Source: Taibaiella sp. (GTDB lineage Bacteria > Bacteroidota > Bacteroidia > Chitinophagales > Chitinophagaceae). From it: a DNA stretch of 64,000 nt. The notes under the pieces are model-generated. The model had not been told where the DNA came from. It saw only the letters and a list, made by a program, of their open reading frames with translations, and did not search any database. The stretch lies in contig JAHBTQ010000002.1 of the NCBI GenBank assembly GCA_019638495.1, forward strand, positions 372,001-436,000. Direction: 5' to 3'. Positions 61,126-64,000 of the stretch are shown in pieces; within the stretch, counting starts at the first letter, position 1, and each line of letters begins with the position of its first letter. Position numbers and translations under genes: made by a program.

Positions 61126-61186
61126 CCCATCCTGGTCCAAGGGTCTCCCTTGGTCCTCAAAATTGCAAGCATCGCGCTTGCGAGCA
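61126..61186. repeat. 61-bp hairpin-rich direct repeat, copy 1
   Basis: 53 of 61 bases identical to 62133-62193, in the same orientation. Contains two hairpins: CCAAGGG-TCT-CCCTTGG and GCAAGC-n5-GCTTGC. Confidence 0.8.
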
Positions 61187-61330
61187 TATGGTCGCCTTTT
61201 TTAATTATTGATACTGTCGATGAAGAAAGTAGAGGTGAAGACGTTGTCTGTCTGCGTTTGTTACCTTTTCTGATTTTCCGTTTTGTGGCCCCGCTACAAG
61301 CTTTGGCTCGAAATTTGTATAATTGTGCAT

Positions 61331-62080
61331 ATGCGGAATTTACGCTTAGTCTTGGTGGTTCTGGCATTTTTCTCATGCCACAAGAAAGAGAAAGAAGCCT
61401 TCCCGGGACTTACGGGCACGTGGATGGGAATAGGTCACACACAGGCTTCCGGAAGCATTACTCCGCCCGATGCATTTTGGCCTGTCGCGGTTCATGTTAT
61501 AGACAATAATACAATAGCTGTATTTCGTGATACGCTGCCGTATAACTCAGGCATATCAAATGATGACAGCGCAGTGTTTAAGATAGTCTCAAATTACAAT
61601 CCGGCCTTAAATTTTACCAGCCTTGTGTACAATAAAAGGAGGCGTGAAGTGCTATATATTTCGTCGGGCGGCTCGTCATCGGGATCTGGTAGCACCTACC
61701 TCTCGTCTGCAAAATATCATCCAAACCCGTTCGTAAAAAATATTCTAAAAAAGCTGTCCGGAACCCGGGCCTTTTCAGGAACGATACACGACTTAACTTT
61801 CTGGCCGCGACGTGACACAACATACGAAACGTCAGTAGACGTGACTTTCACCATAGTAAATGATAGTGTACTGGCATTTAATAGGTCGATATTGATACCT
61901 GGCGGGGACACGTTGCATTATAAGGCAACAGATAATTCTGCTAATACAGTAACATTCGAGACATTTCATCTGTCCGATGATGATATCACCACGGTGATGT
62001 ATAATACGACTACTGATGCAGTGACCATTAAAGAATGGCGTGGTCGTTTTCCTGGTAGAGTGGATGTGGACCTGAAGTAG
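61331..62080 (+). CDS. Lipoprotein, function unknown
   Basis: 249 residues from the ATG at 61331 (MRNLRLVLVVLAFFSC; lipobox FFSC). The mature part begins GLTGTWMGIGHTQASGSIT, a lipocalin-like opening with GTW. Later strands: FWPVAVHVIDNNTIAVFRD, EVLYISSGGSSSGSGSTYLS, SGTIHDLTFWPRR, YETSVDVTFTIVNDSVLAF and AVTIKEWRGRFPG. No known function. The gene is bracketed by the two 61-bp direct repeats, about 145 bp before its start and 52 bp after its end. Confidence 0.7.
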   Translation: MRNLRLVLVVLAFFSCHKKEKEAFPGLTGTWMGIGHTQASGSITPPDAFWPVAVHVIDNNTIAVFRDTLPYNSGISNDDSAVFKIVSNYNPALNFTSLVYNKRRREVLYISSGGSSSGSGSTYLSSAKYHPNPFVKNILKKLSGTRAFSGTIHDLTFWPRRDTTYETSVDVTFTIVNDSVLAFNRSILIPGGDTLHYKATDNSANTVTFETFHLSDDDITTVMYNTTTDAVTIKEWRGRFPGRVDVDLK

Positions 62081-62132: not shown

Positions 62133-62193
62133 CCCATCCAGGTCCAAGGGTCTCCCTTGGGCCTTAAATTAGCAAGCCTCACGCTTGCGAACA
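62133..62193. repeat. 61-bp hairpin-rich direct repeat, copy 2
   Basis: 53 of 61 bases match copy 1 at 61126-61186, with the same two hairpins (CCAAGGG/CCCTTGG and GCAAGC/GCTTGC). The copies are 1007 bp apart and flank one lipoprotein gene. Confidence 0.8.
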
Positions 62194-62369
62194 CTTACCG
62201 TTGTGAGGTCCACTAATCATGAATAGCTTTCCAACCCGTTTGCTGTCTCTATCCCAAAAGATATCAACAAATTCCCTCCACCTGCGCTCCCAATAATTAA
62301 CTCGTCCTACCTTTGTGCCGCAAAGAGCCCATTCCTTTTCGATATAATCTTAAATGTGGCCGCCCTCGT

Positions 62370-62472
62370 TAGAAGTCTTTAGCAACAAGCGTAGCAATTT
62401 TAGAAGCGATATAGCAACCTTCACGCAACTTTTAGCAATTTTTAGAAGCTCGTAGTAGCGTTTAGAAATTAA
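62370..62472. repeat. Degenerate tandem array with ~10.3-bp period (TAG-rich units)
   Basis: TAG trinucleotides begin at 62370, 62380, 62392, 62401, 62412, 62433, 62443, 62453 and 62463; a degenerate unit (CACGCAAC) fills the slot at about 62422. The typical unit is TAGCAAnTTT or TAGAAGCnnn. Average spacing (62463-62370)/9 is 10.3 bp, close to one DNA helical turn. Confidence 0.65.
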
Positions 62473-62614
62473 ATAAAAATTGCATAATCAATACTGGCTT
62501 GCATTTCAGTCGATCGAAACTTGCCCGCACCCCGAAAAAACGAGTTTAGGGTATCGTTTAGCATCGCTTCACAACGAATTGGATTTTGTTCCCCCGCGTT
62601 GGATCTGATTTGCC

Positions 62615-62648
62615 ATTTGGAATTTGGAATTTGGAATTTGGAATTTGG
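62615..62648. repeat. 7-bp tandem repeat (AATTTGG)n
   Basis: About 4.9 perfect copies of AATTTGG in a row, just before the 3' end of the hydrolase gene on the minus strand. Confidence 0.9.
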
Positions 62649-62684: not shown

Positions 62685-63896
62685 TTATCTTTCCACGATC
62701 AGGCGTTTCGTCACCGGTGCACTACCGTCCCTCAGTGTGATCGTCAGGATGTACAGGCCCGGGCTCAGCGATTCGGTATGAAGCTTTTCGGTTTGACCGT
62801 TTGCTGCCTGTCGCAGCACTATGCGGCCTTGCAGGTCTGCTACCTCCAGCATGCTCATATCGGCTGTGGTAGTTATGGTTACGTCGCCCAAAGTAGGGTT
62901 AGGGTAGAGCGAGGCAGTTGCCGCTGCAAGGGTCTGCACCGACGATGTGCCGGAGCATACAAAGGTGTACAGGAATTCGGTAATCGTCGAGTCCACAGTC
63001 TTGAACATTACCGGGTCAGAATCCCATGGCACATGGCCGGCCCCGGGGAAAACAGTAGTTGAATGGAAGATGCCGGCAGCAGTCAGCGCCGGTTCCAAGG
63101 GCCCCATGCCACAAAGGCTAATGCTGCTGAGGCCACCCAGCGCCTTTGCGCACGTGTAGGGAACCACATTATCCAGGTCGCCCTGGAAGTTCACAGATGG
63201 CACATCACCTGTATTGATGAAGCTGGTCTTGTTAAGCGCACCGGCCATATCTATTATGGCGCGGTAATGTATGCCATAGGTAGCAGTGACCGGGTCGCTA
63301 CTGTTGCCATCAATGCCGCCATTGGCAGCGAATGCACTTGCCACATAGGGAGGGCATTCGGCCGAAGAGGTTATATAACCGAGGTGCATGTTCAGCACGG
63401 CGCCGGCAGAGTTGCCACCGGTATAAATGTTGTTGGTGTCTATCTTCCATGTATCGGTAGTGACAGCATCGCGCACAAAATACCTGATGGCAGCTTTTGC
63501 ATCGCTCACAGCCTTTATCACCGCATTGATAGAAAGTGACGAGTCAGGCGAAAGCATGGCGAGCATTGTAGTGAGGCGATAATCTATGGATGCAGTCACA
63601 TATCCCCTGCGTGCGAAACGCATACATAGCGAGTCTACCGTAGCATCATCACTACGGTTGCCCGATATAAAAGCCCCCTCATGTGCCAGGATTATCAGTG
63701 GCCTGTGCGCCATGGCATCGCCCACGGGTTGGTATATGTCCATCTTCAGGCTATAGGGAGAAGAATAGGTGACCGAGTCAACCGAAACAGATGCGAAAAT
63801 TTCATCGCGAAACCGTCCGCCGTCGCATTGTGCATGTGTGGTAAAGGTCTGCAAGGCAAGAGCGCAGTAACCTACGATACGTAAAACTTCTCTCAT
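62685..63896 (-). CDS. Secreted alpha/beta hydrolase (esterase-like) with T9SS sorting domain
   Basis: 403 residues from the ATG at 63896 (MREVLRIVGYCALALQTFTTHAQ signal peptide). The alpha/beta hydrolase fold: PLIILAHEGAFISGNRSD carries HEGAF where related lipases often have HGGGF, and the nucleophile elbow is IYTGGNSAGAVLN (GNSAG). Later HVPWDSD holds a probable catalytic His, and MGPLEPALTAAG precedes it. The last ~80 residues are a T9SS type A domain (SLYPNPTLGDVTIT to LSPGLYILTITLRDG, ending KRLIVER). Substrate unknown. Confidence 0.88.
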   Translation of the reverse strand: MREVLRIVGYCALALQTFTTHAQCDGGRFRDEIFASVSVDSVTYSSPYSLKMDIYQPVGDAMAHRPLIILAHEGAFISGNRSDDATVDSLCMRFARRGYVTASIDYRLTTMLAMLSPDSSLSINAVIKAVSDAKAAIRYFVRDAVTTDTWKIDTNNIYTGGNSAGAVLNMHLGYITSSAECPPYVASAFAANGGIDGNSSDPVTATYGIHYRAIIDMAGALNKTSFINTGDVPSVNFQGDLDNVVPYTCAKALGGLSSISLCGMGPLEPALTAAGIFHSTTVFPGAGHVPWDSDPVMFKTVDSTITEFLYTFVCSGTSSVQTLAAATASLYPNPTLGDVTITTTADMSMLEVADLQGRIVLRQAANGQTEKLHTESLSPGLYILTITLRDGSAPVTKRLIVER

Positions 63897-64000
63897 TGAT
63901 AAGTGGGTTTGATTTGTCCCTTTAAGCAATTGCAATCAATAGCTAAAACTGAAATATACAATTATGCGCCGGACAAAGCAAGTAGTTCGTCCGTTGCGGC

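Follow-up and report, generated by a model that had tools for sequence, protein, structure and literature searches.

Many small terminase subunits (TerS) show little sequence preference in binding DNA. TerS proteins assemble into rings, most often of nine subunits, and share a layout of helix-turn-helix (HTH) domain, helical core and disordered tail (PMC9611059). In phage packaging systems such as those of SPP1/SF6, P22 and PaP3, the DNA site (pac or cos) adjoins terS and comprises ~100 bp of bendable, repeat-bearing DNA; Greive et al. present a pac segment of about this length as bendable and well suited to wrap around the TerS ring (PMC4737164). A review judges both current models of TerS-DNA recognition, wrapping included, to be incomplete (PMC9611059). 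Here we compare these systems with a ladder of TAG-initiated units in a gene-free part of a 64,000-nucleotide stretch of Taibaiella sp. DNA (the window, i.e., the whole stretch analysed). The gene linked to such ladders encodes a protein of the same layout, has relatives beside the large terminase gene (TerL), and adjoins a DNA array of about 100 bp. Unlike in the phage systems, these genes stand by themselves, no TerL, capsid or integrase gene adjoining them, and the ladder is a regular one-per-turn site, scattered 20-50 times per genome.

Other described elements share part of this arrangement. MITEs are also short, intergenic and multi-copy, and arise by gene loss from a longer copy; here, however, the gene in the longer copy is for a TerS-like protein, that copy has no transposase gene, the end repeat of the element is very short, and no target duplication was seen. 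Plasmid centromere iterons, e.g., the 11-bp repeats of R1 parC, are direct repeats about one helical turn apart that are bound by the product of the adjacent gene, as we infer for the ladder, but the ladder element has no motor partner and exists in dozens of chromosomal copies. REP/RAYT and other palindromic dispersed repeats are likewise dispersed and intergenic, whereas neither the ladder nor its core has a hairpin structure. Finally, phage-inducible chromosomal islands combine terS with a recognition site outside a phage, as the ladder element would if the ladder is such a site; the latter has no integrase, replication or capsid-size genes, and measures ~1 kb or less.

The original prediction described TAG units at steps of 10, 12, 9, 11, 21, 10, 10 and 10 bp. 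A recount confirmed these steps, with starts at 62370, 62380, 62392, 62401, 62412, 62433, 62443, 62453 and 62463, and one further TAG at 62456. The 21-bp step, which had been read as holding a degenerate unit, is indeed filled, but not by mere degeneration: an ACGCAA-like unit occurs in 14 of the 16 copies of this type in the same genome, one bp out of register, so that the step resolves into 10+11 bp. The view that the ladder encodes no protein repeat was also borne out. The longest chain of TAGs with steps of 9-12 or 20-22 bp in the window has 9 members, against 3-6 in simulated 64-kb sequences (first-order Markov, n = 300); when the ladder's own dinucleotide composition was used, a chain of 9 arose in 2 of 300 simulations. 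The strongest evidence against chance is the recurrence of the phased array at other loci, and the simulations and this recurrence rule out a chance origin.

The window ladder lies between two convergent genes, named by reading their translations: an ORF for a predicted lipoprotein (61283-62080, + strand) and an esterase-like gene whose product has the look of a C-terminal sorting domain (62685-63935, - strand). An adjacent pair of hairpins, AGGTCCAAGGGTCTCCCTTGGGCCT and GCAAGCCTCACGCTTGC, is found at 61126-61186 and again at 62133-62193, on either side of the first ORF, and this stretch has just these two copies genome-wide; other hairpin repeats adjoin several ladder copies. A heptad tandem, TTTGGAA, occupies 62616-62641, and similar TTTGGGA/TTTGGAA runs adjoin ladder copies L003 and L058. 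The features of the window copy are collected in Table 1. The promoter reading of TACCTTTGTGCCGCAAAG presumes the TAnnTTTG consensus, which we take to apply to this box.

Table 1. Features of the ladder element in the window (positions within the 64,000-nucleotide stretch)
Feature	Position	Strand	Description
Left block	62256-62325	+	From alignment of 16 copies; common to TerS-like gene promoters
Operator-like AAAAGATATCAACAAATTCCCTCC	62256-62279	+	Part of left block
Putative Bacteroidota-type -7 promoter box TACCTTTGTGCCGCAAAG	62308-62325	+	Part of left block
Non-conserved leader	62326-62369	+	Place of the terS-like ORF in gene-bearing L053 and L058
TAG ladder	62370-62472	+	Units TAGAAG/TAGCAA/TAGTAG about every 10 bp; one ACGCAA unit at ~62422
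Conserved core TAGAAATTAAATAAAAATTGCATAATCAATACTGGCTTGCATTTCAGTCGATC	62463-62516	+	Best-conserved block, 1.37 bits per column
Right end (CGAAAAAACGAGTTTAGGGTATCGTT)	62533-62558	+	Degenerate in window copy

A search with the ladder and its flank identified 16 TAG-type copies in the window's genome, including that of the window, to which the other 15 are 71-88% identical over the matched part. A sequence model built from 15 TAG-type copies (R1) recovered all 16 at E<=3e-20, and additionally detected four more distant copies, on contigs C1, C4 and C8. In these distant copies TATACC, repeated every 10 bp, replaces TAGCAA/TAGAAG, and the core is shared. With a fifth copy of this type at C1:494.6 kb, the family in this genome totals ~21, i.e., 16 copies of TAG type and at least 5 of TATACC type, all intergenic and in mixed orientation to their neighbours. 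Contig C1, which makes up 1.3 of the 4.4 Mb, has three of the five TATACC-type copies and none of the 16 TAG-type copies, nine of which are on C5. The aligned copies have the same order of parts, namely the left block (AAAAGATATGCACAATTTCCCTCC...TACCTTTGTG, or a variant), a variable stretch, the ladder, the core (TAGAAATTAAATAAAAATAGCATAATCAATACAGG...GCATTTCAGCC, a version of which is also present in TATACC-type copies and in the genome G027), and the right end, which in most copies other than the window's is GGTATAATATACC or similar.

Among 35 genomes of the genus, the three-unit TATACC pattern was found in six, and in none of the reverse-read controls. Such loci number ~50 in G027 and at least 13 in G026; G019 has many, and G007 and the window's genome have few. 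The lone match in G031, which has no core, is probably due to chance. In G027, the 21-bp steps are occupied by inverted units (GGTATAATTATACC). Over ~85,000 genomes, four-unit TATACC matches fell mainly in the same genus, and the remainder look like unrelated exact tandem repeats, as do 54 pattern matches in viral contigs; this pattern search of viral contigs thus revealed no ladder beside the phage versions of the gene. Model matches at contig ends of G008 were judged to be chance matches to insertion-sequence-like repeat ends with no ladder. These repeat ends (L070, L075, L078-L082) are 124 bp long, identical to one another and include a 36-bp palindrome; they recur at many contig ends, and the insertion-sequence-like element to which they belong is multi-copy and breaks up the assembly. 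Matches in G009 and G017 (L068 and L069) were classed as analogues rather than proven homologues: in L068 (1300-1750) and L069, a ~10-bp phased array (AACGTTTAGAAA...) precedes a gene for an excisionase-like HTH protein, at the end of a putative genomic island.

The array for which the original prediction would have looked in its own and in related genomes therefore recurs in the former and also, built from a different unit, in four further species. Absence from close relatives, the first half of what had been named as refuting the prediction, holds at this locus. The same esterase-like gene was located in 23 relatives (two loci being fragments), and the array model matches nothing at any of these loci; the gene neighbours also differ there, so that no clean empty site is available. 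Because the array recurs elsewhere in its own genome and in the four other species, we interpret this absence at orthologous loci as lineage-specific dispersal.

Measured from the core, most of the 16 TAG-type copies have units at -10, -20, -30, -41 (ACGCAA), -51, -61, -71 and further out; in others ACGCAA is at -51 or -61, i.e., whole 10-bp units have been gained or lost. The triplet phase columns carry 1.3-1.7 bits in the 16 copies, versus 0.85-1.1 bits for the spacers. Phase is what the ladder copies conserve. The claimed phasing by helical turn is upheld by 35 further ladders, in which steps are of 10, 11 or 21 bp, apart from a few of 9, 20 or 22, and the longest of which has 12 units across 118 bp; steps of 10, 11 or 21 bp are seen in the four other species too. 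A wedge model predicts the window ladder to lie at the 99.8th curvature percentile of the 64-kb window, and predicts all six TATACC ladders tested to be more curved than their own shuffles. The earlier suggestion that a DNA-bending or protein-coating site is the likely kind of function is supported by this predicted curvature.

Two copies in the window's genome, L053 (C5:603 kb, TAG type) and L058 (C1:386 kb, TATACC type), have the ladder just downstream of an HTH gene, and the two encoded proteins, of 198-200 residues, are 79% identical to each other. Genes of the same clade, defined by at least 40% identity to L058, have a ladder within ~400 bp downstream in G027 (three genes), G019, G026 and G007. 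That is, in the five ladder-bearing genomes each of the eight clade genes (two in the window's genome and six spread over four further species of the genus) is followed by a ladder at 30-400 bp, while none was found beside the more distant paralogs examined. Ladders occur in 5 of 7 genomes with the clade and in 0 of 28 genomes without it (p ~6e-5, calculated by hand; 4e-6 when the doubtful G031 is counted). The exceptions are G024, whose gene is 44% identical, and probably G031, both of which have the gene and no ladder. The wider protein family is present in 32 of the 35 genomes, at 1-13 copies each. Thus, we hold it as nearly certain that the repeat family is tied to this terS-like clade, and the statement that no feature class explains the ladder no longer stands: the window ladder belongs to a repeat family that is scattered over the genome and linked to a TerS-like gene.

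The ladder-linked genes stand alone among other genes, and no TerL adjoins them within flanks of ~1.5 kb. A match to Terminase_5, the N-terminal HTH of terminase type, was obtained for 27 of 28 family members, and phrog_4151 matches most of the ordered length of the protein. Relatives immediately precede TerL in Bacteroides phage p00, and one there is annotated as a terminase small subunit; in the window's genome, the relative L140 directly precedes a prophage-like TerL (phrog_38). No viral relatives of the ladder clade itself were detected by tblastn. In the AlphaFold model of the monomer, the HTH is followed by a long helical hairpin and two more helices, and the tail is disordered (mean pLDDT 74; ~90 for the HTH helices). 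Compared with the PDB, the model matched no solved TerS, and nothing at E<=0.001; among viral models, its top match bears the label DDE transposase family protein (a label taken as given), and TerS names appear only weakly. The name TerS-like therefore reflects sequence and gene context, not fold. The putative recognition helix reads SQRTVSNY in L053, beside a TAG ladder, versus SQKT[VI]S[TQL][YW] beside TATACC ladders. Unit and helix differ together once, a single event, which is consistent with wrapping of the ladder by the protein. Another clade of solitary terS-like genes, with 11-13 copies in each of G009 (L358-L366) and G006 (L367-L371), forms scattered ~1-kb units made up of a palindromic operator and the gene, and has no ladder; in G009, arrays of ~280-350-bp repeats lie upstream of them, and comparison of the G009 copies revealed no obvious mobilising partner beyond operator and gene.

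Gene-less copies have upstream blocks that match the terS-like promoters of the same species, at 73-96% in the window's genome and 70-100% in G027; the L058 promoter is 85% identical to the window copy over 34 bp (blastn). At L217 in G027, an ORF stump (MNNDKKQQAKELY) that resembles the TerS-like N-terminus runs into the ladder. Because the promoter block is kept, and one copy retains this stump, the gene-less copies, that of the window among them, are MITE-like deletion derivatives.

On this basis we propose that the complete element would consist of an operator and promoter, the terS-like gene, the ladder, the core and a terminal TATACC palindrome, and that the window copy is a gene-less derivative with TAGCAA/TAGAAG in place of the TATACC of related copies. 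The TerS-like protein may form a ring of about nine subunits with its HTH domains facing outward, as in phage TerS, and the ~100-bp pre-curved ladder would wrap this ring, with one HTH contact per helical turn. The ladder would then be a pac-like array, in the manner of the nucleosome-like model for pac DNA; a one-per-turn array of ~7-12 units is what a TerS ring would need for sequence-specific wrapping. That the ladder is a binding array for the TerS-like protein is probable, given the repeat family, its phase, the gene linkage, the co-occurrence across genomes, the promoter retained by gene-less copies, the resemblance of the protein to phage TerS, and the predicted curvature. The whole account, i.e., a TerS-like ring wrapped by the ladder of a small dispersed element, we favour by a modest balance of the evidence. 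Counting against such wrapping are the lack of a significant match to a solved TerS fold and the DDE transposase label of the best viral model, as well as the genes of G024 and probably G031 and the phage versions, none of which has a ladder. The low sequence preference of many TerS proteins and the incomplete state of the wrapping model (PMC9611059) weigh in the same direction, and the paired difference of unit and recognition helix is a single event.

The element is presumably mobile in some way, and wrapping might serve autoregulation, spread or movement of the element, or a pac-like start of packaging with a TerL acting in trans. We consider a packaging role rather doubtful. A minimal selfish element, in which a terS-like gene with its own helix-phased wrapping site spreads via the heads of a helper phage or prophage, seems equally doubtful; dozens of pac-like sites scattered on the host chromosome would in that case direct the packaging of flanking DNA, and the prophage-like TerL beside L140 is of note in this regard.

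The ladder might instead be a transposition end, with sites for a transposase or an accessory subunit, in a MITE moved in trans; the TerS-like protein would be that accessory subunit, or a passenger. A dispersed multi-copy element with deletion derivatives is what one would expect, and many G027 copies start with GGTATAATT and end with AATTATACC, a 9-bp terminal inverted repeat. Yet this repeat is unrecognisable in the window copy, no target-site duplication was seen by eye at the ends of ~20 G027 copies, and no gene-bearing copy examined includes a transposase, the terS-like gene being the sole shared gene. We therefore regard a transposition end as unlikely. It is more improbable still that the array serves a wrapping protein of the host, of nucleoid or Lrp-like type, with the terS-like gene a co-spreading neighbour. 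Phasing and curvature would suit any wrapping protein, and the sites are intergenic, but ladders are confined to genomes that have one terS-like clade, and lie beside clade genes, and the unit differs between species and, in one genome, between two gene-bearing subfamilies, as fits an element-specific protein.

We find it very improbable that the element is a cis-regulatory module for host neighbours, with phased A-tracts acting like an UP element: several copies in the window's genome do lie upstream of the housekeeping genes atpD, sucD, metK, rpsA, purM and topB (named by reading translations), but orientation to the downstream gene is mixed (~12 same, 7-8 opposite), and the window copy, between convergent genes, is upstream of neither. 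Least credible is a non-coding RNA transcribed across the ladder from the left promoter, since, for all that gene-less copies retain the promoter-like block, the copies share no conserved structure and have no Rfam match, which rules out a structured RNA or Rfam family, and the window copy folds no better than its shuffles.

With binding of the ladder by the TerS-like protein as the preferred reading, these results point to a dispersed element in the genus (Flavipsychrobacter and relatives) that is carried by a phage-packaging-like gene without a phage; our literature searches found no description of such a repeat family. Specific DNA recognition by the HTH ring of a small terminase is still incompletely explained (PMC9611059). 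An array that occurs naturally with a site at every helical turn, in dozens of copies and with subfamily-specific units, would provide a ready-made test of wrapping.
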